NCBI GenBank assembly: GCA_903907165.1
Contig: CAIVNC010000031.1
Coordinates: forward strand, 1-32,938
DNA from: Candidatus Buchananbacteria bacterium
Lineage (GTDB): Bacteria; Patescibacteriota; Patescibacteriia; 2-01-FULL-39-33
DNA length: 32,938 bases
Direction of reading: 5' to 3'
The number at the start of each line of letters is the position of its first letter. The first letter of the stretch is position 1. The notes under the pieces are model-generated. The model was not told where the DNA came from, did not search any database, and saw only the letters and a program-made list of their open reading frames with translations. The position numbers and the translations under genes were made by a program. This document shows, one piece after another, positions 4,158-32,938 of the stretch.

Positions 4158-4337
4158 ATGCCTCAAGCATGCGCCATCTGTGGCCGAGGAACAGTTACCT
4201 CATTTAGCGTCAGCCACTCCAAGATCAAAACCAAAACCACTCAGAAAATCAATTTGCAAAGCAAAAAGATTGGTGGTCAAAAAGAAAGAATCTGCACCAA
4301 CTGCATCAAGACTTTGGCCAAAAACTCCGCAAAGTAA
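4158..4337 (+). CDS. rpmB: 50S ribosomal protein L28 (59 aa)
   Basis: ATG at 4158, TAA at 4335-4337: MPQACAICGRGTVTSFSVSHSKIKTKTTQKINLQSKKIGGQKERICTNCIKTLAKNSAK. L28 pattern (CxxCGkg...VSHS...K.N.Q.....RICTxC.K) with two CxxC pairs. Below the ORF-track length cutoff. Confidence 0.93.
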   Translation: MPQACAICGRGTVTSFSVSHSKIKTKTTQKINLQSKKIGGQKERICTNCIKTLAKNSAK

Positions 4338-4403: not shown

Positions 4404-4817
4404 TTATTTAGCTTTCCATTCTGTGGGTTGCATCAAGGCAAACATGTTTCCTTCTGTGTCTTCAGCGTTAGCAAACCAACCAACTTTTGGCATCTCCATT
4501 TTTTCCTGAGTGATCTTGCCGCCATTTTTCTTGACCGCTTCAACGGCCTCATCTATACTTTCAACTTCAATCGTACAATCATAAGTGTAAAGTTTTTTAT
4601 CGGCCGGACGCTGATACATACCGCCATTTATTCCAGCGGTTCCATCTGGACCAGTGACCAAACCCCAATAGTCCATTCCGCCTTGCATTTCATCGCCTTC
4701 CTTAGCGTCCTTACTCATCCACTTTTCAACCTTCCAACCAAAGGCATTCTCATAAAATTTTTTAGCTCTGGCAATATCATCTGCCTGGAGCTCAAAATGT
4801 ATAACGCGATTTTTCAT
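4404..4817 (-). CDS. VOC (glyoxalase/bleomycin-resistance-like) family protein
   Basis: MKNRVIHFELQADDIARAKKFYENAFGWKVEKW...GLVTGPDGTAGINGGMY...EVESIDEAVEAVKKNGGKI...PKVGWFANAEDTEGNMFALMQP. Confidence 0.9.
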   Translation of the reverse strand: MKNRVIHFELQADDIARAKKFYENAFGWKVEKWMSKDAKEGDEMQGGMDYWGLVTGPDGTAGINGGMYQRPADKKLYTYDCTIEVESIDEAVEAVKKNGGKITQEKMEMPKVGWFANAEDTEGNMFALMQPTEWKAK

Positions 4818-4913
4818 ATGTTTAATTTAATTTATTAAACTATTTTAATAAAAAATATTTTCTTGTATCTTTATTATAGTTTATTAGGGTTAAGATAAGA
4901 TTAAGAAGAAGAA

Positions 4914-4950
4914 AATAAAAAAGCTCTCAATCTTTCTTCAAGATGAGAGC
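4914..4950 (-). terminator. Intrinsic terminator downstream of the NDK-like gene
   Basis: Minus-strand GCTCTCATCTTGAAGAAAGATTGAGAGC stem (one bulge) followed by TTTTTTATTTT. Confidence 0.8.
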
Positions 4951-4983
4951 GTTTATTTTTTGAATCATGGAGAGGATCATTCC

Positions 4984-5889
4984 TTATCTCTTGCAAGGAC
5001 CCCAGACTCTGATTTCCTTTTTAACCGCTTCTTCGCAGTCTGCCGCGTGAACAGGGCTATCAAGACACCTCTTCTCATTGTCGGCGGCTTCAAAGCTGTC
5101 ATGGGAAAAGTCGAAGCGAATTTCACCGGGACTGCCCTTGCTTGGATCGGTCGGTCCAATCAAGCGGCGGATTCCACTGATGGTCAAACCTTTTCTGCCG
5201 GCCAGAATAATCACCCTGATCCAACCAGAGGCCAGATCATCGGCGATTTGATCGCGAAGTTCCTTGGCTTTTTCCGGGCCAAGCTTCGCTACCTTTTCTT
5301 GCTCCCAGGCGTCATCGTAGTGTAACCTCGCCTGCTCCAGAGTTGGCTTGACAGGAAACTGATCGACGAGAACATAGCCCTTGCGAATAAACCTGGTGAT
5401 GATCTCGTCGGCCTGACAATAACGATTGGGCTTGACGATCACCAGACCAAGGTCAAAGATTTTGCCAAATCCCTTGCGATTCGAGTCATGGGCTTTGTCG
5501 CGATAGTAAAGATACCAATCGCGTTTACCATCAAACCCTTCCTCATACGACCTGCCAGCAAGAAATTCTTTAGTAACCCTGGCGGCCGCATCAACCTCCT
5601 TTTGAGTAGTGAGATCGGTCGCGATCATACCTGGAGGAAGTTTTAATTTCTTTTTTCTGCTTCCTTTGTCCCCCACCCGATCGACCAACTTGATACCATC
5701 CGGTCCAATGACGGGCTCACTATGACCGGGTATTTGCCGGGCAATTTTCTTCATGGCATCTCTCTGCTGTTTCTGCTGCTGTTTTTTTGGCTTTCCCACC
5801 GACAAAACACCAAATCTTTCCTCGGCAATGGAAAGTGGCAATCTGGGACCTTTCCATTCCACGTATCCATCTTTATTTCTTTCAACCAT
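4984..5889 (-). CDS. Long NDK-like protein: about 150-aa uncharacterised N-terminal region plus divergent nucleoside diphosphate kinase-like C-terminal domain
   Basis: C-terminal half: DLGLVIVKPNRYCQADEIITRFIRKGYVLVDQFPVKPTLEQARLHYDD...GIRRLIGPTDPSKGSPGEIRFDFSHDSFEAADNEKRCLDSPVHAADCEEAVKKEI. Start placed at ATG 5889 (MVERNKDG) because GGAGG lies just upstream; ORF track extends to 5901. Confidence 0.75.
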   Translation of the reverse strand: MVERNKDGYVEWKGPRLPLSIAEERFGVLSVGKPKKQQQKQQRDAMKKIARQIPGHSEPVIGPDGIKLVDRVGDKGSRKKKLKLPPGMIATDLTTQKEVDAAARVTKEFLAGRSYEEGFDGKRDWYLYYRDKAHDSNRKGFGKIFDLGLVIVKPNRYCQADEIITRFIRKGYVLVDQFPVKPTLEQARLHYDDAWEQEKVAKLGPEKAKELRDQIADDLASGWIRVIILAGRKGLTISGIRRLIGPTDPSKGSPGEIRFDFSHDSFEAADNEKRCLDSPVHAADCEEAVKKEIRVWGPCKR

Positions 5890-5945
5890 GATATCCTCCA
5901 AACCTCGAATAAATTTTACTCACTGTGCGAACTTACTTGTGCCAG

Positions 5946-5974
5946 ACTTTAACAGAACAGCACTAAATTGTCAA
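5946..5974 (-). promoter_or_regulatory. Putative promoter of the NDK-like gene
   Basis: Minus strand TTGACA (5974-5969), 17-nt spacer, TAAAGT (5951-5946). Confidence 0.55.
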
Positions 5975-5975
5975 A

Positions 5976-6003
5976 TAAAAAAAGCTCCCAACTTCTGAGA
6001 GCT
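5976..6003 (-). terminator. Intrinsic terminator downstream of zinc-ribbon protein A
   Basis: Minus-strand AGCTCTCAgaagTTGGGAGCT stem (one G-U pair) followed by TTTTTTT. Confidence 0.8.
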
Positions 6004-6028
6004 TATTTGAATCAACCACGATCAGAAA

Positions 6029-6529
6029 CTACTGATCTTCATCGGTCAAAGCCAAAGCCTGCTCACCGGTATACGATTGAGCAAACTGATGAACGCGATG
6101 GAAACTACTTTGGCCGTTCTTGTAGAACTCTCGGAAATAGCCAAGGACAAATCTGCGGTCGGTAAAAAAATATTCCTTGATCGCCAAACCATCATTACTG
6201 ATCGCCCAGTGATTTTTTTCTTGGCGAGACAAAACATCAGCGGCCATCAAAATGATCAGCATCAAATCTTGATGATCGCTACTATCCCTGTCGTGCCGAC
6301 AATTCTCATGATAGAACCGCCAATCAACTTGAACCAGCCCATCTTTCCCCCCTGACTTGACGAGGCCTTGATAGCGCTTGAGCAAAGCGATAAATTCTTT
6401 CTTGGCACAACTATCGCAGTTAAGTGCATCTCTTTCCACCTCAAACTTCAAGCCAAGATGTTCAACAAAAAACTTTCCATGCTCTTTCTTGAACGATTTG
6501 GAACACTTGAAACAATTTTGCCTATTCAT
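6029..6529 (-). CDS. Zinc-ribbon-like protein of unknown function (paralog A)
   Basis: MNRQNCFKCSKSFKKEH...ALNCDSCAKKEFIALL...VQVDWRFYHENCRHDR...SRQEKNHW. Two CxxC pairs; start placed at the ATG following AGAGGAAG; ORF track extends to 6568. Confidence 0.75.
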   Translation of the reverse strand: MNRQNCFKCSKSFKKEHGKFFVEHLGLKFEVERDALNCDSCAKKEFIALLKRYQGLVKSGGKDGLVQVDWRFYHENCRHDRDSSDHQDLMLIILMAADVLSRQEKNHWAISNDGLAIKEYFFTDRRFVLGYFREFYKNGQSSFHRVHQFAQSYTGEQALALTDEDQ

Positions 6530-6560
6530 GATTATCACTTCCTCTCTTTTTGAGCGCTTG

Positions 6561-7001
6561 CTAATCACGGCTAATTATCACTGATTCATTGACATCGAAA
6601 ACCTTCATGTAGATCCGCGCATCTTCTTGACGCCGAAAGAAAAGCATACTGTCATCAAGCCACGGATTTACTGAAGTGCTGGGAGGCCAAAAAAGATTGT
6701 AATGATTTTTTCGCTCAAAAGATAGAATCCTCAAGCTCAAAAGTATTCTCAACATTTCAGCTTGCCTCTCAGGAATGAGCTCCCCGTAGGGCGAACAACC
6801 GATCCGACTGGAATCACGATAAAACGTCCAATCAACAATCAAGCGGTCACCACTCCAAGAAACCAAATGATTATGCCGCCTAAGATTCTCAAAAAATATT
6901 GCCTCGCAATCAGGGCAGACTAGGGCCAGACAGTTTCTTTTCTTTACTGAAATAATCCTGGGTTTTAAGACCCTAGGACAAAATTGACAGGAATATTTCA
7001 T
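6561..7001 (-). CDS. Zinc-ribbon-like protein of unknown function (paralog B)
   Basis: MKYSCQFCPRVLK...LALVCPDCEAIFF...LIVDWTFYRDSSRIG...SFERKNHY. Shares CxxC...CxxC...VDWxFY...KNH[WY] order with paralog A; AAAGGAG upstream of ATG. Confidence 0.75.
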   Translation of the reverse strand: MKYSCQFCPRVLKPRIISVKKRNCLALVCPDCEAIFFENLRRHNHLVSWSGDRLIVDWTFYRDSSRIGCSPYGELIPERQAEMLRILLSLRILSFERKNHYNLFWPPSTSVNPWLDDSMLFFRRQEDARIYMKVFDVNESVIISRD

Positions 7002-7056
7002 GAAATCATCTCCTTTCCGAATTTATTTTAACGAACGATTTTTCTACTCAAATTGA

Positions 7057-7107: not shown

Positions 7108-7605
7108 TTATTGAGTGTGAATTTCGTAAACAGTAGTGTAGTTGCACAATTCATCTTCGCCAAACCACAAAGGAATTTCACGAGCAGCATCATTAGCATC
7201 AGCAGAAGCGTGAATCAAATTTTCGACAACTTTTTCTTTGGCATCAGCGTGCTTATAGCTGACGTGAGCATAGTCACCGCGGATAGTTCCAGGAAGAGCT
7301 GATTTTGGTTCGGTTGCGCCGATCATCATACGGACATTTTCGATAGCTTCAACACCTTCGATAACCATAGCGAGTACCGGACTAGTAGAAATAAAATCCA
7401 TCAGCAAAGCTCTGACTTTTTCACCACGACGAGTAGCGATATCTTCGCCATAATGTTCGCCGGCTTTTTGAGCATCCGCTTGCTTGAGTTTAACACCGAC
7501 AATTTTGTAGCCAGCTTTTTCAAAACGAGTGACAATTTCTCCCATCAGTCCTCTTTTGACTGCATCGGGTTTTAACAAAACTAGAGTTCTTTCAATCGTA
7601 GACAT
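7108..7605 (-). CDS. ndk: Nucleoside diphosphate kinase
   Basis: MSTIERTLVLLKPDAVKRGLMGEIVTRFEKAGYKIVG...VRMMIGATEPKSALPGTIRGDY...NLIHASAD. ATG at 7605; ORF track uses an upstream TTG (7614). Confidence 0.96.
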   Translation of the reverse strand: MSTIERTLVLLKPDAVKRGLMGEIVTRFEKAGYKIVGVKLKQADAQKAGEHYGEDIATRRGEKVRALLMDFISTSPVLAMVIEGVEAIENVRMMIGATEPKSALPGTIRGDYAHVSYKHADAKEKVVENLIHASADANDAAREIPLWFGEDELCNYTTVYEIHTQ

Positions 7606-20307: not shown

Positions 20308-23300
20308 TTAGTGACAGATACCATAGGTATTTCCAGTGAAAATAATATTGGAATAAGTAGCGCCTGCTACGGTGTAATTAAGTGGAACAATTTGAGCCGC
20401 ATTCGTGCAAGGCAAGCTGATTGCAGCCCAATTGAAGCTATATTGTATACCCGTAGTGCCACCATAATTAACAACAGAAGAAGCTGGCGATGTTGCGCTA
20501 ACGCCAGTAACACCAATAGAATACGGCAAGCCCACAACTTGATTCTCAAAATCATAAATGAATAGTTTGAAACCACCCTTACGAGAACTAGTCAAGCTGA
20601 AGTTATCAGGATTAGTATCAAAGTCGGATTTAGTGCAATCATAAGAACAAACATTGTACTGATTTATAAGTGGATTTGAACCATTTTCATCTGTAAATTT
20701 GTCCGCTCTATCAAAACTGCCAGCCGCCTCATCTTCTGCTTTATCTACCGCAACACTTGCCACACTAACCTTTGTGTAAGCCGTGGAAGCATCTGATTGA
20801 GCTGTGCTGGCATATGTACGCATTGTTGTAGTGGCGGCATTAATATTATTTTTAAAAGTATTAAGAGAACTCGAGGCAGTATTCACGGCCGTTATTGCTT
20901 CCCCAAGTGCAGTTACAGCATTCGACATAATAGTCGTTGGATCGCTATCCAAATCATATTCATTTTTATAGTACGCCAAGCTTCCAAGAACACTGGCGCC
21001 GACAATTGAATTAAAACTGTTTATAGCTGAATTTGTGCTTGATACGGCACTATTACGATCCGGTGGATCAAAATGAGCAAAATTATAAGCCTCTTGAGAA
21101 TACTGATAAGCATCATAAGCTGGTTTAAGAAACGCTTGCGGTTCAATTCCTTTCTGGTAAATATTGTAAACATGACCTACAAGTAAAGAGTACACTTTTA
21201 CATTACTGTCTACCGCGATTGAATCATAGTAATGACAAGCCATAGCAGTTCCATTTTTTTTCTGGTAACAACTACCCACCTGAGGAGGGGTTGTTCCTAC
21301 GAAAATTGCGACTTTATCATTGCCAGTTGCACTATGAATATAGCTATTGGCTTCTGTAGTAAAGCTACCATCAGCACTCCAACCACCATCCCAAGTAATT
21401 TGGCATTGACCAGCAGTAATAAGATTGTAATGAGAAAGATTATCACAGAGAGTTGTATATTTTAAATTAGATATGGCCGCGGAGATACTGGATGAATCCA
21501 TAGAACCAGTATAAACCCTGTTTAATCTACTATAACCATCTCCAGCCAATATAGCACTTCCGCCCCAAGAAGTATTCCTCACAAAAATAATATGAGTGGT
21601 AATATTAGCTCCTTTACTATTTGCAGTATTAATCTCATTGACGATTTTTTCTACTAAAGACGCATAAAGATCTGCCAACCTCACAGGATAAGCGGAACCG
21701 GAGGCAGTGGTTTGACAAAAATACCCAGCACTAGCAGTTGGACACTTAGTACTAACGCCCTTAGAGTAATAAACTCTAGCGGATGTGCTTGTAGAATTAG
21801 CTGTACCCCACATCAAAGAAACATCAACGTTAACCATAATATAAACGTCAACAGGACGCCTAGTAACATTTAAGGTTAATCGACCAGGATAATCTAATTG
21901 ACCTGGATCGCCAATATAATAAGGGGTACTGGAAACAAGTCCAGAATAACAAGCTGGAATTGTAACATTGAGATTATTACTAACAACAGAACTGTCTCCA
22001 TAAGTAACTATATTTGAAGGAACTGGAGCAACTGGCTCTCTTAGACAATAATCGGAACACCAACTGTTGCAAGTTGGATTACTGCCATAACTGATCAATG
22101 TGCCATTTATACCGGATCCCTGATCGCATTTTTCTTCGCCATAACCATGCTGACCTCTAGCTAAACCCTGCCAAGTTGGTATTGATGCCGGCAACATTCC
22201 AGCTGCTGCTCCGGTTGGAACACTGCCCGTTGGCCAACCAAAATGGAAAAATGGTGAAGGAATAAAGCCCGTCTTACCATAATAACCATAACCATTATTT
22301 ATAGGCTGGCTGATGGCATCACCGCAGTAACTTAGGTTACAAGCAGTAGTGCCGTTGGTTCCGTCATAGCACTGCTCGGTACTACTATTGGCCCCACCCA
22401 TGTCGCACTGCTCATGACCAGCGGTAAAGTTAACGCCACCCAAAGTAGCTCCCACGGTATCGGTATATCTAGAGTAATCAAATAAAATTGGTCTGCTTAT
22501 CATTACACCCTGACCCGTATAATTAGAATAACCTAAATCCTTCCAAGTCACATTGGCAAATATCGTACTGGAATTGTACAAATTACTTGAGGTGGTAATA
22601 CCACTACTTAAATCTCCGTTTGGCCACTGAATAGTGCCGTCACCGCAATAAGTCAAACCTGGAATTCTGGCTTTAGGATTCGATATATCGCCGGTGCAAG
22701 TTTCATTGCAAATTCCCAAATTTCTCTTTTTGCATGTCTGATCAGAAGTGGGAGTTGGCCAAGAATGATTAATACCGCTAGATGGGTTATAACAATCAGG
22801 GTCTTGGTAGCATTTAGTGCCGTCTGCGCAGGCCTGACCGTCATCGCAATACTCTCGAACGCCAGAAGAGTTTACGGTTAAACCTATACTGCTATAATTA
22901 GGCCCTTGAATAGAGTTATCACCACAACGAGTAAAGGTGCAATCAGCATTACAACCCAATTGACTATTTGAAGTTCCATTCAGGACACCCTCATCACACT
23001 GTACATGGCCATAATTATCTCCGCCACCAGGATTCAACTCTCTGATTTTGGTCGTAGAGGCATAACCGGAAATATAATAACCTAACTCGCCTAGAGTTTT
23101 ATCAAGATTGGCTGGAGTATTGCCTGACTTAATAGCCCCTACACCATTCTGATAAGTTGAAGTGGGAACACCATTTGTAACGCCAATACCAGGATAACCG
23201 CAAGTCGTCCATCTGCAACCAACGCATTGATCGGTGTCATGGCCAAAATCGCATTCCTCGTACTTCGGATGGCCATTTTTATCCTTGTCTCCGCTTGGTC

Positions 23301-26300
23301 GTTGAACAATGCCATCACCGCAACTAGTTTTGACTCCCTTGGGTCCGCAAGCGCCAAACTTTTTGTCGGTATAATTAATGTCACAAGTCTTATCACCTTT
23401 CATTCCACTGCACTGGCTATTACTAGAATCGCATTTGGTCTGACTATCAGAACAGAGGCCATAAATATGGCATTTGCTATCACCAATACCGGTGCAATCG
23501 CTATCTGGAATACAAGGAGTGGTCTTATTGGAACAAAATCTCTGGCCAAAATCACATTGTTCATAATCGCCGTCACCATTTGGAGATTGGACTATGCCAT
23601 CACCCAAATATGTTTTCATGCAGTTAGGGGTACATTGCTTTCTATAGTTATTGTTGGGGCCAGCATCGCACTGCTCAAAACCAGTGCCTCCGGGCTTCAG
23701 AGAGATAGATAGCAGTTTAGTATTATAGTAGCTAACATCAATAGAATTCCTTGATAGAAGAGTAAGGAAAGTATCAGTAGCATAGCCGACCTCTTTGGCA
23801 GTTTTTGATAAAATGGGATCGGAACTAGTAACTCCGCCAGTAAACATGCCGTTTGGAGTTTGAACAACGCCATCACCACAATAAGTCGGTTTCCAGCAAT
23901 TTTTTCCGCAAAGGCCATTACTATCATTAACCCCGTCATCGCAGGCTTCTGTTCGGCCGTTAAATGTATCAATCTGACCATTACCGCAAAATGGGTTGAA
24001 ATAATTATCATCAGTAAAGCCTCCCGTCCCCCAAGGATTGGAAGAAAGCCAGCCGGCAGAATCGTAATAATACAACCAACCGGAACAATCTTTTCTGCAT
24101 TTTCTCAAATTATCAGGCGTAGTCGAAATATCGTCGCAAACTTCATTGCCTTCAACCTTGCCATTGCCGCAAGTTTGAGGATTGATACAGAGGGAACTAG
24201 TCGCAAATCCAACAAACGGATCCGGATCGGTGGCAGTAAGACTGTTATCTTTGATAAAATCAACTGTGTCCCAGCCTGGCAACCAATTGCGACCGTCTGG
24301 TTCATTACCACTATGATTAGGATTATATTCTGCCTTAGCATAAACACCTCTCAAGGTAGAATTATTAATTGCCGTAACCAGGGTAGTACTGACACTGACA
24401 TACCCACCAACGCCATAGGCATAAGCATTAACAGTGTTTGGACAAGCCATTTGCTTAATAGAATCATTCCAACAAGTGCCGGTAGCCGCTCCTTGAGACG
24501 AACAGCCGGTCAAATAATTTAATGGATCAACTGGCAAGCCGGTATTTAAAGCGTCGCCCAAAGTTGTCTGCCAAGATGGCCAAACACTGAAAGTCTTGCC
24601 CGACAAATAACTTCCTGATTTAATGCCAGGGTAATAATGGCCGCAAGTGCCATTGCCATGACAATCGGCATCGCTCTGGCAAAGCACATCAAGATTATTA
24701 TTACAGCGAAGAGCGCTATGATATTTATCTAACAAAATATTAACTGTTTGAATATCTAAAACTCTTCTCGTGTCTCTAGTTAATTTGGCTTTATCGGACA
24801 AACAATAGCCCTTGCTAACCGCCTGACAAGCAGAATCGGTCAAGCAATCATAAGTGGAATCGCCGCTACATTTATCAAAATACGGCAAACCACCAGTAGA
24901 AGTTGCTCCTGTGTTAAAGTGGAAATTATTAATCATCTGATTATAAATATCCTTGGTGTCGCCGGTAGCCCCTTCGTTATAGGACATTAAATAAATATTA
25001 GTGCTAATGGTGATAGGGGTGGTACTTACATCAGCCGCATCGGCATATAGCGATCTGCCTTCGCGAACTCCAGGATAACCATTGACCATCAGTGAGCTTG
25101 GGCTACCTTGTTGTTTTTGATCAAAATACTTGCGATACCAGTAAAGAGCTGGATAATGATTTGGATTAGAAATAACCCTGATACCAACAGCATCTTTTGT
25201 AGTGCTAGCATTCTGATCAAAAGAATAATAGGAAATCAAGCCATCGTTAACTTGTTGTAATTCATAAAGGTTTGTTATTTCGTCACTAGACAAGACTCGA
25301 TCAAAAATATTCATTTCATCCATAGCGCCTTTATACCAAGATTCTCCTCTCTTCCACCAATAAGCTTTATCGCAATCACTATCGCTACTGCAACTAAGTT
25401 GAGCCTTGGCCAAATCAGCAGCAGGCACAAGACCACAATTCATTGGATCTCCGTTGCCAATCCCATCAAGATTATAGCATCTTGTACATTTATGACTTGT
25501 CGTAACGCAATTACCAAATCCGCCACGAATAGAACCTAAATCAGAGTCATAATTTGGAGTCTGCCAAGATTCTTGTGATCCAGGAATCAAATATTGTCCC
25601 AAGTAAAGGTCCTTATTAAACTCAACATTGACACCTACAGGAAGAACCGTTGATCCGGCTGGTTGATTATTAATGAAATAATTTAATTGACTGGTATCAT
25701 GATCAAAAGTAATAACTACATTATTCCATTCACCCCAAGCAACACTCTTAGTGCTGACCGGCGAAGTATACATACGATTAGGACTATCAGCGAAGGTAGA
25801 TCGTAATTTACCATCACCAGTCAAATACGCCAAAGTATGCAACTGCCCATAGCCAGCAATAACTAAAGCATTATTTTGTGTTGGTCCATGACTGCCATCG
25901 CCAAATATGGAATAATAACTACCTGTTGAAGTTGGTTTTATCCAAATAGAGAAAGTAAATGAATGATTATTTGTTAATCCTGGATTTTGGATCTTTATAT
26001 ACTGATCAGTCTGACCAGTTTTAACATTATTAATTTCCTGACCAGTGGCGTTTAAGACATAAGCCTTGCTCAAGCCAGTAACGTTAGTATCTCCAGAATT
26101 AACCCCTGGAGAAGCAAAGAAAAATTCTTTAACAAAACTATCTGTTTGATTTAAAGCAGCAGTAGCATAAAGCGCTGAATAATCATCGCTGAGATCATTG
26201 GGTTTGCCTTTGTCACGACAATAATAAGTTTCTAGATTGGTATTTACACAACCACTGAGGCCATTGGTACAATTTTTGCTAGAATCACGATATGGGAAAT

Positions 26301-29300
26301 ATTTAGCGGCAGGCCAAGGATTGTCACATAAGAAAGTTTTGATGAAAACCGTGGTGCTAGCGACACCGCCTTCGGTGGAACTGGCCGTCACAATCAACTG
26401 ACTATCGCCACTAACAGCCCCAGAAGTAAACCAAGTTATTCCAGGATAAGTAGATGTCACGATATTACTGCCATCAACGCCAATAGTACTGGTATTATTT
26501 TTATTGTTATCGCCCTGGACGACATAATGAGGATTACTTAAGTCCCAATTAACGGCATCAGACTTAATCATATAACCGCGACTCTCTATACCCCAGGCCT
26601 GATACAAATGTTGATTACCATTAAGATTGGCATCGCTTACTACTTGATTATTAACTTTAAGATAAGGGTAATCAAAATTAGTGGCTGAAAGAGGATCGGC
26701 GCTGGCATCTTTATTCCAATCAGCAGAAACATCATCATCATACATATCATCAGTCAAGCTGCCGCATTTCTTTTTATTATTAGCATCAGTGTAACAGAAG
26801 AAATTGTCATCGGTCTTGGCTTCACCGCGAGGCCAGATATCCACTCTGACGCTAGATATGGCGCATTTTTGCTTAATAATATTCTCAGCTATCCCGCTAT
26901 ATGTTCCAGAAGCATTTTGAACAGCAACTTTATATTTGTGACCAAGCTTCCAATCAGTGTTCTTTATTAAATCTGTAATCTTCTTGTTGGAATAATTGTA
27001 ATATTCCAGGGTTTGGAAATTATCTGTTGAAGTTACGGAAAGTTGAGGCTGAACGTAAGTAGTGCCATCAGCATCTGGCGGACAAGGAGTTGTATTATCA
27101 GTAGCAATCGCCTTACGGCCGACAAAGTAATCAAACGATGATTTTATCTTAAGAACAATTTTTTGCCACCAGCCCTGACGCAATGCCAGAACCGTACTGC
27201 TACTCTCACAAATCTTAATATTATTTAAATCAATATTTGCCACCGCTGGATCAGTAATAACTTCCAATACTCCATTAGTACAATCGCTAAAACGGATAAT
27301 AGGACTGCAAACATCAGCATCACCACTCACCCTAAACGTCCAAGAATAGCTATCTGGTTGGCCATTTTCCACAATGCCATTACCGCAAACCGCGCCATTA
27401 GTTGAACCTTCTAGAAGACATCTATCACTGCAACCATCACCACTAGCAGTGTTGCCGTCATCGCATTGCTCACCTTTTTCAATTATACCATTGCCACACA
27501 TCGGAGCATTGAGTTCGGAACCAGAAACTAAACTACTGTTAGTATAATGAACCGTGTCTCCATTTGCATTAACCCAAAGACAATTACTGGAAGAACAAGT
27601 TAAAGTGTGATTCGGATCTGTTGATATGGCGCTTGTAGTTGTTGTCTGTCCAGCAATACAAGCCTCTCCTCTTTCTATTTTATTGCCACCGCATTTATCT
27701 GGAGCAACCGTACCTTCAAGCAAGCAATTACTTGAACAGCCATCGCCATTAACCGCATTGCCATCATCGCATTCTTCGCCTTGATCCAATTTACCATTAC
27801 CGCAAGAGGCTACATTTTTATTACCGAGATCATGGCAAGTATTATCACAATAAATGGCGCCGATGGTTGAGGTAGTACATTGAGAAAATGTGGTACCACA
27901 AAGATCCATATTGGGATTAATGGTACATTTTGAAGTACAAACTCCCGGCGCCCCGCTCCAAGGATAAATGCTTGACTCACATTGTTCGCCGGTATTTTTG
28001 TTGCCAAAAGAATTATAATTCAGGCTAAATAATTCATTGCCGTTAAAAGCCTTAATACCATCAGGACCGCCGTTAACCACTACTCGGTAGGTCGTGCCGG
28101 TGGCATAAGTACTTGTGACCTCGATATAATTAGAATATGCTCCGGCAAAAGTTAGATTAGTAGTAGTAACCTTAGTGAAAGTTGAATTATTCAAACAACT
28201 TGGATCATCTATGGAGCACTTATAAACTGAGAAATTGCTAGCGGTTTTGGCGGCAGACTGGCAAACCTGATTAGAACCGGCAAAATCGTAATGATAAATT
28301 AGATTTTGAGGGCTAGCTTGCTTGTTGTAAATATTTACTATCTCACCTGTGGTTAATGCCTGATCATAAACTCTCATTTCGTCCATACTGCCACGATACC
28401 AAGAGCTAACTCTATCCCACCAATTATATGCGTCGCAATCAACATTACCACCATCATCATCTAGCGGATTACAGTCAATGCTATTGGCACCTGGCTGACC
28501 ACAAACTGCCGGAATACCGCTACCCCAAGTACCGCTCCAACAACCAGTACATTTATTTGTTGAATTATCACAAGTACCATATTTACCCTTAAGATTATCA
28601 ATATCTGGATCTCTTCCTGGTTGATCATAAATCAACTGATTACCAGGCAAAGCGTATCTTCCAAGATAAAACGACTGAGCAAATTCAATATTGACGTCAC
28701 CCGGAACAACCGAAAATCCAGCCGCCTCGCCATTAATGAAATATTTCAACGTATGGCTAGCATTATCAAAAGAAACTACAACATTATTCCACTGCTTCCA
28801 ATTAATTGGCTTAGTGCTAGACGCTGGAAAATATCTGTCAGTGCGATTTTTTGAGGGGAACACGCTCTGTAAGGCACCGCTACCATTAATATAAAGCAAA
28901 ACATGCTGTTGGCCGTAACCGGCAATAACTTGATTTGGATTAATAGTCTTTAGGGGATTTATCCAGATAGAGAAGGTAAATGAATGATCATTGCTTAATT
29001 GATTTATAGCAGGAATCCTGGCGTAATCACTTGTGGTAGCTGAGGTATTCATACCAAAACCGTAAGCCATACCAAAACCATAAGCTTTATTTAAATCAGG
29101 AACACCAGGAACAACCGACACTGGATCTGTAACTCCACCGCATTGGACAGCCTTAGTTGAATTGTCGATTGACTTCGTGTCAATATTAATATTAAAGTCT
29201 GCCCTAATAAAATCATTGGTGCACATTGATTCTGTCGGGTGCTGTTTGACGACCCGTAATTGATCATCGCCAACCTTCAAAACGCCGGAACCCCAAAGAT

Positions 29301-32300
29301 TATCGTTAGTAGTGCTAACTATTTTTGCTTTAATATTGGTAAGTCCATCGGCTACGGCTGTTGCCCACTGATCAGGATCGACTTTGCCATCCGGCTTGCA
29401 GACAGACTTTGGGCCATTGCCGTCATAATTAGAAATAGTGGCTATTAAATCACCGGACTGATTATTAATCAAATCAATCAATGATTTCCAATTCCAATCA
29501 TAACTATAACCGTTTAAAACATTGCAATTTGCCGCATTTGGAGTGGCGCTATATCCTCCCGTTTGAGCGATATACATACTGGCATATCCGGGATCAACAC
29601 CAACGGATTTAGGATCGCAAACCCGATCGCTAGTTTTGAATAACCAATAATAATCGTTGTCACTACCTCCGTTATAATGAAAGTCTGGAGAAATTGTCGG
29701 GGTCATCAAGATGCCCACGGACTCTTTCAACTCTTGCCAATTACCATCTTTATCTTTTTCAATTACTGACCCTCTGACTCCATTTTTTCCGCCCAGAATA
29801 ACTACCCGATACCAAGTGTTAGAATTCCACAAATTATTTGTACTGCATTTGTCTAGTTTAAAACCAGCTGGTTGAGCAGCATAAGAAGCGTTAATAGTAG
29901 ATGAAACATCAGCGCTGGTCAAATGAGTATATTTAAAAGGAACGACCACACCCGGATCAGGAGCTAGAGTCCAATTAGAACATTTTTCGGCATCATCTAT
30001 AGTCTTTGCACCAATACACTCTTCAACAATAATAGTGCTGCTAGTTAGCGTATCGCTATTCATAGATCGGCTGAATCTAGCTGAGATCAAAGAGTTGCGA
30101 CAAGCGTCAGTTGAAGCGATAAAAGGACTTGGACTTTGAGTAGTCTTAGCGCAAGAAGAATCTTCCATAACAATCGGATTGGTAAAATCATCATAAGCCT
30201 TGCAAGAATCATTTTTGGCAAGATTATTAATTCTAGCCGCCGTGATAGAAGCGTAAGCGTTTGGCAGATCATAAATAGTCTCTCGTAGTGCTGTAGCGGT
30301 GCTGCTGGAATAAACAATATTTGGGACGCTAACCTCGGTTGATTTATCAGATAACCAGTTCCAGCCAGTCGGTCTATAAAGCATCAAACAAACATTATCA
30401 GCGCTGTCCATATCGGCATTATAGGTGGTTGTTGCTCCCTGCCACCACATCGTATGACTACGAGGCGAACAATTAACGCAGCCGTCAGGACAATTGGCTT
30501 CTGTGGGCCTGGTTTGGAAATTCCAGCAATAAGCGGCATCAGAAGTAGTGGCGTCATTTCCTTGAAGATCTTTGTAATTAACTATGCAACTACGTTCGCT
30601 GACAGCATCTTCACTGTTTGGATTTGGAACTAAGTTAAACTGATAATAACTCTTAATTCCCTTAGATAAAACAACTTTATAGGTGGAAGATGCGGCTAAA
30701 GTAGGAACGATCGTAAAAGCGTCTGTATCATCAAGACCGTTTGAGTTGTTGCCGGATAATTCAATGCCTGTAGAAATCTGATTGCAATCATCACCTTGAT
30801 CATTGGCGCACTTTAAGATTTTAATCGTGCTAGTATTAACGGTGCTGGGATCCATCCTAACATTAAATCTGGCAAAAATCTTGGCGTCTATACAAGCCAA
30901 GGGGTCAGTAATTTTCAACTTTGGATTTGTGGAAGCATTCCAGCCATAATTCCAGGGAGTTGGACTAGGATCAAGAGCGTTAGCATTGCCCTGGCAGTGA
31001 TCAAGACCGCAATCCTCTTCCACGTAAGGACCTTCGAAGCGCTTGTCGCCAAAAAGATTAAATTGCCAATTATAAATGCCATAAGTCGCTCCAGGCATCA
31101 ACAACCCGGCTCGGCATTTACTGGTGTCAACTTGGCATTTACTGGTACAAGAAAGGCTGCCACCACCCAAACCATAGGCAGCGCAAGTGTCCTTGTTAAC
31201 TGGATAAATAGGCTTTGCACTACTATCACAAGTCTCGCCGCCATCAATCTTGCCATTACCGCAAACATCCGGAGGTCTGATGCAAGTACAAGGCGTACTA
31301 CTAACATTGCCCGGCAAGTTACCATTAACATCACAAACCAGATTAGAACCGCAACCATCAATATCGCAAGTATTATTAACATAACCGCAAGGATCGCCTG
31401 GTCCAGGAGTTGGTGGAGTAGAAAACTGCCAATGATAAATACCATAAGTCGCCGCACCATACATCATAGCGCCAGCAGTACATTTAGAAGTATCCAACTG
31501 ACAACTCTTAGTACAAGTAACTTTTCCCTGACCCAAACCATAAGCCGAACAATCATCGCCATTAGGGAAAACATTGCCATCGCATTGTTCGTTGCCAGAC
31601 AAGGCTCTAGTGAAAGAAAGATCGTCTACATATAAATCTGTGCCATTAGCGTTGGTCTGATAATCACCCTCCATTACTAACCATAAATGCCTATGGCCAA
31701 GATTATCTTTTAAAACATCTAAATTACCACTGAAATTAAATTTAACTTTATAATCAGTCCAATTATTGGTTGATGGGGTTGTGGAAACCAAAGCACCAAT
31801 ACTAATTGGATTAAATCTTCTAACTTGACTTGGTGCCTGCAAACAGCAAAGTCCGGCATCATTAGTACAATATTTACCAATAGTACAACAACGGGTGCTA
31901 CTTGCATTAAAATCAACACAAGTTATTGAACTCGTAACCGCATAATCACCTGTAATTTGAAGACTAGTCCAAGCATCTTTATCGTATCTCATTAATAAGT
32001 TCATATTCGCCCCCAGATGTCCCTTATATTTAAACTTCAAATAGTAGTCTTCACCCAACTTAAAATCGGTACTAGAAACATCAACGGCAAAAGAATAGTG
32101 CTCTAAATAATTATTTCCGTCATTTAAATAATAAATTTTTGCTCCCTGTTTAGTAAATGTTCCATTACCAGGTCCACTAGCCACACATCGATAATATAAT
32201 GGGTCGCCGGTAAAACCAAGACAATTACCTACTGGATATATTCTACATTCGCTAGTGGTTGAAATCCAACTACAAGCGCCATTAACTGCTTTACTCCATA

Positions 32301-32938
32301 AATAAGTTAAATCATTTTCACAAGTTTGTTGATCACACTTCTTATTATTGGGATCAATATTGGCGGCCTGAGTAATATGCATAACCCCATTACTAGGATC
32401 TGATGGATCGGTTGTAAATGTTAGAGTTGGAGCATATGTCTTATTAATTAATTGAACACCCTTAGAAGTAACGGCTGAATAAGACGAATTAATGCTACTA
32501 AAATTAATAAGGTTTAATTCACCGCTGGCCACCCCACCTCTTACGCTAGCAGAATCATTATCAATGACACCATTGCCGCATTTTGAAGCTGACTGAACGC
32601 AAGTACAAGGAGTTTTATTGGTATTATTAGCTGAGTTGCCAGTAACATCGCAGACCAGGCCACCACTACAACCATTGATATCACAAGTACCATTAACTGA
32701 GCCGCAAGGATCGCCTGGTCCTGGAGTTGGCGGAGTAGAAAATTGCCAATTATAAATGCCGTAAGTCGCTGAGCCATAAGCTAATCTGCCGTTTGAGCAT
32801 TTACTGGTATCCACTTGGCATTTACTAGTACAAGAAACGCTACCAGTACCGAGGCCATAACCAGCGCAAGTATCTTTACCGACTGGAAAGGCAGTGCCAT
32901 CGCAAGACTCACCTGAATCCAATTTGCCATCGTTATTA
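20308..32938 (-). CDS. Giant secreted cysteine-rich multidomain protein (partial; 5' end beyond right edge)
   Basis: Single open minus-strand frame. The frame stays open to the window edge ([14 protein letters not shown]...), so the TTG at 32922 is not a credible start. Many Myxococcus-type Cys-rich repeats ([31 protein letters not shown]), two LamG-like domains, Big-like segments, a C-terminal VWA-like region and an Ala-rich helical segment. Confidence 0.93.
   Translation of the reverse strand, partial: [4209 protein letters not shown]
21170..21860 (-). other. VWA-like domain with degenerate MIDAS in the giant protein
   Basis: [18 protein letters not shown]...[32 protein letters not shown]...[13 protein letters not shown]...[10 protein letters not shown] follows the VWA strand/helix order, but the DxSxS motif is incomplete. 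Confidence 0.5.
22040..24170 (-). repeat. Array of variant Cys-rich repeats (CGDGxxQxPNG...EQCD) with long insertions
   Basis: [126 protein letters not shown]. Confidence 0.85.
25240..26090 (-). other. LamG-like domain 2 of the giant protein
   Basis: [19 protein letters not shown]...[28 protein letters not shown]...[10 protein letters not shown]...[26 protein letters not shown]. Confidence 0.85.
28330..29070 (-). other. LamG-like domain 1 of the giant protein
   Basis: [19 protein letters not shown]...[28 protein letters not shown]...[10 protein letters not shown]...[26 protein letters not shown]. Confidence 0.85.
31238..31590 (-). repeat. Cys-rich block, copy 2 (copy 3, truncated, continues to about 31062)
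   Basis: [76 protein letters not shown]...[16 protein letters not shown]; near-identical to copy 1 over long stretches, including at DNA level. Confidence 0.9.
32555..32904 (-). repeat. Cys-rich block, copy 1
   Basis: [76 protein letters not shown]...[16 protein letters not shown]. Confidence 0.9.

Follow-up and report, generated by a model that had tools for sequence, protein, structure and literature searches.

The host is a symbiont-type bacterium with a small genome and is related to Candidatus Buchananbacteria. Its three-gene islet lying between ndk and rpmB is best explained, with a probability of about 75%, as a lineage-specific accessory islet whose leadered genes start from Shine-Dalgarno (SD) sites in a genome with an SD-free core. 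It is probably horizontally acquired and one of about 30 such islets in the genome, and its SD sites illustrate locally a pattern that extends over the genome. The features of the locus are collected in Table 1, with coordinates given in the window, i.e., the whole analyzed stretch of 32,938 nucleotides.

Table 1. Features of the islet and of its surroundings (energies in kcal/mol).
Feature	Coordinates	Strand	Remarks
rpmB-like gene	4158..4337	+	Conserved flank
VOC/glyoxalase-like gene	4404..4817	-	No SD; missing at this site in relatives
Intrinsic terminator 3' of NDK-like	4914..4950	-	Folding against shuffles; resembles 5982-6004 in sequence
NDK-like protein, 301 aa	4984..5889	-	N-terminal part plus divergent NDK domain
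SD GGAGG of NDK-like	5895..5899	-	Read in sequence; anti-SD duplex -9.3
Candidate promoter of NDK-like, TTGACA-N17-TAAAGT	5946..5974	-	Consensus match 10/12
Intrinsic terminator 3' of zinc-ribbon A	5982..6004	-	Folding against shuffles
Zinc-ribbon protein A, 166 aa	6029..6529	-	Paralog of B
SD AGAGGAAG of zinc-ribbon A	6538..6545	-	Read in sequence; anti-SD duplex -14.1
Zinc-ribbon protein B, 146 aa	6561..7001	-	Two CxxC motifs; first of a two-gene unit
SD AAAGGAG of zinc-ribbon B	7010..7016	-	Read in sequence; anti-SD duplex -13.9
Candidate promoter of zinc-ribbon B, TTGAGT-N16-TAAAAT	7025..7052	-	Read by eye, weak
Canonical ndk	7108..7605	-	Conserved flank; no SD

Zinc-ribbon proteins B and A are encoded in a single unit, with 31 nt separating the two genes. 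The NDK-like gene starts at 5889, the TTG start at 5901 given by the ORF tool being unneeded. A preliminary description of this DNA had noticed clear SD sites before these three genes and none before the housekeeping genes, and both observations are borne out by the duplex energies. Indeed, the three islet values fall within the lowest 0.5-2% among conserved-gene starts, and all other recognized genes of the window, housekeeping genes included, reach -4.5 kcal/mol or weaker. The other strong SD match in the window belongs to ORF 24011-23697, which is probably spurious as it lies in a different frame inside an ORF of 4,204 aa. The islet was also described as the only part of the window with strong sites, which is correct at this scale but does not extend to the genome, where accessory genes elsewhere repeat the pattern.

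The islet is located, as first described, between housekeeping genes. At this locus, the six family genomes compared (G001, G002, G003, G005, G007, and G008) all show an intact rec-ndk-rpmB-M50 order devoid of the islet, which is thus not universal in the lineage. In four of these six genomes, ndk and rpmB are only about 45-75 nt apart, with little besides a terminator between them. The insert found between both genes in the window is about 2.7 kb long and consists of the VOC gene and the three islet genes. Since the VOC gene is absent at this site in relatives, it is part of the lineage-specific insert. Its start without SD is evidence against the best explanation.

Other lineages display different inserts at neighbouring borders; in G005 and G008, some of the inserted genes are small, preceded by an SD, and encode CxxC motifs. 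In the distant L193, L197, and L238, one short ORF each stands between ndk and rpmB with a good SD (-12.2, -8.1, and -16.4 kcal/mol, respectively). G008 also carries four small ORFs as an islet separating rpsG from fusA (L048:10562-11843); judged by eye, they apparently form two alternating paralog pairs, one of them with C-H-W...CxxCG motifs. The ndk of G002 (L112:13703-14128) is 39% identical to that of the window, and the other family genomes checked show 68-76%.

Outside the accessory genes, strong SD sites are uncommon across the genome. The host genome is a 57-contig MAG, 86% complete, with starts taken from a simple ORF caller and a coverage of about 692 kb of 755 kb (about 92%). With conserved and accessory genes defined by tblastn against one relative, the family genome G002, duplexes of -9 kcal/mol or lower precede 48 of 202 accessory genes versus 8 of 387 conserved genes (p = 8e-17), and the pairing of conserved genes with the anti-SD is no better than that of shuffled sequence (p = 0.88). 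When SD sites are called by motif, 9 of 54 SD-bearing genes are conserved in G002 versus 378 of 588 genes without SD (p = 8e-12), and the reciprocal test gives 9 of 62 versus 414 of 755 (p = 4e-10). The association persists in codirectional, spaced, and divergent genes. The split is also found, in a weaker form, in G002 as a second genome (32/352 accessory versus 8/423 conserved genes at the same threshold, p = 6e-6).

A MAG of 57 contigs with starts from a simple caller may raise the suspicion of contamination, mis-assembly, or mis-called starts. Such an artefact is very improbable, as the islets lie inside contigs and between conserved genes of the host, the split recurs in G002, internal-ATG and shuffled controls for SD are low, and alternative starts change nothing, none of them rescuing an SD in core genes.

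The SD-bearing accessory genes form, by our own count, about 30 islets, many of which are located between housekeeping genes. They are clustered, with 11 adjacent SD-bearing pairs versus 4.1 expected, and several islets hold local paralog pairs. About 28 of 39 SD-bearing proteins are without a Pfam family (own count from the tabulated proteins), while the remaining ones include an AdoMet_Synthase-family enzyme, an F420 ligase, a DUF84 NTPase, Band_7, PAS-kinase, and Ig-domain proteins, the Ig domains being found in two proteins by Pfam scan. The SAM synthetase (Pfam AdoMet_Synthase) is present in only 1 of 94 relatives. In genome G000, an SD-bearing operon (C22, L058:317-3215) associates an F420-ligase-like gene, the AdoMet_Synthase-family SAM synthetase gene, and a third gene, and is rare in the class. 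In another SD-bearing run of the same genome (C5, L028:12709-17979), the N-termini of the encoded proteins resemble signal peptides, and the two genes at the end are paralogs (E 1.5e-16).

The start regions of both classes also differ in their promoters. In most accessory SD-bearing genes, a -10 box is found 40-65 nt from the ATG, whereas in core genes its distance peaks at 0-10 and 20-40 nt. The closest position (0-9 nt) is occupied in 52 of 217 promoter-scored conserved genes versus 21 of 147 in shuffles, i.e., in a fraction of the core. Among accessory SD genes, 38% have a TTGACA sequence within 120 nt, versus 7% of core genes, and SD-bearing genes are enriched for C at -1. The -10 box placed 0-10 nt before the ATG in a fraction of the core resembles that of leaderless (TA-led) bacterial genes (PMC3160421). 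Unlike in that system, a second core group has its -10 box 20-40 nt upstream and still no SD, and the split follows core versus accessory status. The exact motif AAAGGAG-N-ATCATG, considered as a family-wide signature, was rejected as it is sparse outside G000, with 11 matches in this genome and 0-2 in each of the other family genomes; its ATC part is thus lineage-limited.

In the islet itself, the candidate promoter of the NDK-like gene stands about 56 nt upstream of the ATG. That of zinc-ribbon B is absent from the output of the consensus promoter scan, in which promoter-like sites are as numerous in the region as expected by chance. The claim that the islet has its own terminators is confirmed, both of them folding better than shuffles with z-scores of -3.3 and -2.4. 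The 3' ends following the NDK-like gene (4912-4967) and the zinc-ribbon A gene (5973-6014) have in common GATTCAAA and a GCTCTCA hairpin, and from this likeness, the two 3' untranslated parts look as if they had been duplicated or recombined.

The islet had been said to be less AT-rich than its surroundings. This holds strongly for the NDK-like gene and clearly for zinc-ribbon A, but weakly for zinc-ribbon B, which stays within the range. GC contents are 0.494, 0.435, and 0.420, respectively, and GC3 values are 0.517, 0.491, and 0.429 versus 0.360 +/- 0.047 in conserved genes, i.e., percentiles 99.7, 98.7, and 92.7. Composition thus differs between the islet and its flanks through the high GC3 of two of the three genes and through codon use. 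Tetranucleotides do not set it apart, the distance of the 2-kb islet being unremarkable (73rd percentile of 290 blocks) in a control whose mean was numerically faulty (NaN). The same tendency is found throughout the SD-bearing genes, with a GC3 of 0.458 versus 0.383 (p = 5e-11) and TGA stops in 31% versus 11% of genes. Their codon use is atypical, differing both from that of conserved genes (p = 6e-17) and from that of accessory genes without SD (p = 2e-7), with a shift toward C- and G-ending codons, including CCC, CTG, GAG, and CAG. High expression is not supported as the cause of this shift, which ribosomal-protein-like genes do not share.

Codon use is also what argues against the main rival explanation, according to which the SD genes would be native, fast-evolving or newly arisen, the SD marking a regulated, leadered class as opposed to a constitutive leaderless core. 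A native class would fit with the normal tetranucleotide signature, with start regions and terminators of uniform style across otherwise unrelated islets, with the local tandem paralog pairs, which resemble in-place duplication, and with the high share of proteins lacking a Pfam family. However, the GC3 and codon shift is missing from ribosomal-protein-like genes, and some SD-bearing members belong to known families that are rare in the class, so that a native origin appears rather unlikely.

Horizontal acquisition, suggested from the outset, is supported by the islet-free synteny of the six family genomes, by zinc-ribbon proteins without homologues in the relatives searched, and by atypical codon use. 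The searches yielded neither a donor nor a close homologue for the three islet genes, so that transfer is deduced from their distribution and codon use. With a single MAG, a simple ORF caller, and conservation judged against one relative, it is probable rather than proven. No integrase, tRNA, target duplication, or flanking repeat was found at the insert. The locus thus resembles the genomic islets of horizontally acquired ORFans by its short insert at a conserved border, its atypical codons, and its lack of relatives, but differs from them in that no mobility gene or att-like repeat is seen and that the SD-bearing class has one start-region style. A phage origin was rejected: the three proteins have no PHROG match, and the phage and plasmid matches of the NDK-like protein (P0001) cover about half of its length, around the NDK domain. 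Neither this protein, searched in viral contigs and genome contigs, nor P0002, another of the three islet proteins, searched in viral contigs and phages, has a homologue there. A TCCGCC..GGCGGA palindrome at about 7064 was considered as a REP/MITE boundary and discarded, as its 10 copies in the analyzed genome are not tied to islets.

The functions of the three islet proteins can be proposed from their sequences. The NDK-like protein carries a divergent, C-terminal NDK domain (residues 149-296) matching the nucleoside diphosphate kinase family PF00334 with 53 bits (E = 4e-14) for a curated cut-off of 27. Like this family, it has the catalytic His together with most residues of the site, namely, Lys, Tyr, the Arg and Thr of RxxIGxT, and the Arg of GxIR. 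It differs from the family by its length, its N-terminal 148 aa belonging to no known family and having no relatives in the genomes searched, and by the replacement of the Asn and Ser beside the catalytic His, which we take to be Asn115 (N115) and Ser120 (S120) in human NM23-H1 numbering. Because of these replacements, the protein might act as a kinase of reduced activity or as a nucleotide sensor. Its origin by recent duplication of the adjacent ndk was dismissed since the identity is just 27%, and no match to the NDK-like protein was found in G002.

The paralogy of zinc-ribbon proteins A and B is weak (35% over 81 aa, E 0.002), and neither matches a curated model of Pfam, PHROG, or NCBIfam. 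No homologue of A was found in the 94 relatives searched, B is absent from 380 other genomes of the class, and no further member of the family was found in the host genome. Both probably act as small regulators binding nucleic acids or proteins. The predicted structures of the NDK-like protein and of zinc-ribbon A are poor (pLDDT of 45 and 48, respectively).

A different translation mode, the other possibility raised in the preliminary description, is in line with host core genes showing no SD enrichment and SD sites standing on accessory genes. The 16S tails of relatives keep CCTCC, usually in the form CCTCCTTTCT, so SD-anti-SD pairing is possible; a full 16S is present in two family genomes, both of them keeping CCTCC, and the host 16S is truncated. 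In the proposed mechanism, the SD genes would most likely have entered by horizontal transfer and would have kept, or been selected to keep, pairing with the intact 16S tail. A typical accessory gene would combine a TTGACA-type promoter, a leader of about 35-60 nt, an AAAGGAG-type SD, its own terminator, and often an ATC before the ATG, giving a leadered mRNA presumably translated through canonical SD-anti-SD pairing, whereas conserved genes would start SD-free from leaderless or short A/T-rich leaders.

Alternatively, control could be exerted by the ribosome, with the anti-SD hidden on most ribosomes and exposed on a subset of them or in a given condition, in which case the SD genes would form the corresponding regulon. 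In Flavobacterium johnsoniae, the 16S tail is sequestered by bS21, bS18, and bS6 (PMC9976891), and the host core is likewise devoid of SD though relatives keep the anti-SD. Most family relatives also contain a weak S21-like match. However, these matches are mostly below the family cut-off and the host genome, which is incomplete, has none, so that such control seems improbable. Bacteroidia share with the host an SD-free core, an intact anti-SD, and a minority of strong-SD genes, rpsU in their case (PMC9976891, PMC8710568), whereas here the minority is a large accessory set and occlusion of the anti-SD is hypothetical.

If the leadered-islet explanation is extended to other genomes, some Patescibacteria might possess two initiation regimes according to gene age, SD-independent for the core and SD-dependent for recent gains, a generalization that we consider doubtful. 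If true, the ancient anti-SD would be maintained mainly for accessory-gene expression and could be a switch controlling accessory genes as a group. This bears on the puzzle of a perfect anti-SD kept in lineages hardly using SD, to which a background SD level on core genes together with strong SD on accessory genes offers a concrete, testable answer. No earlier description of this core/accessory split was found in the open-access literature. The SD could also be a simple sequence marker of recently gained Patescibacteria genes, for which composition alone is weak.

Besides the islet, the 4,204-aa ORF of the window (20308-32922, minus strand) encodes a giant surface-type protein with Laminin_G_3 domains and DUF4215. 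It adjoins the gene of a protein with TSP3 repeats (20295-19621).
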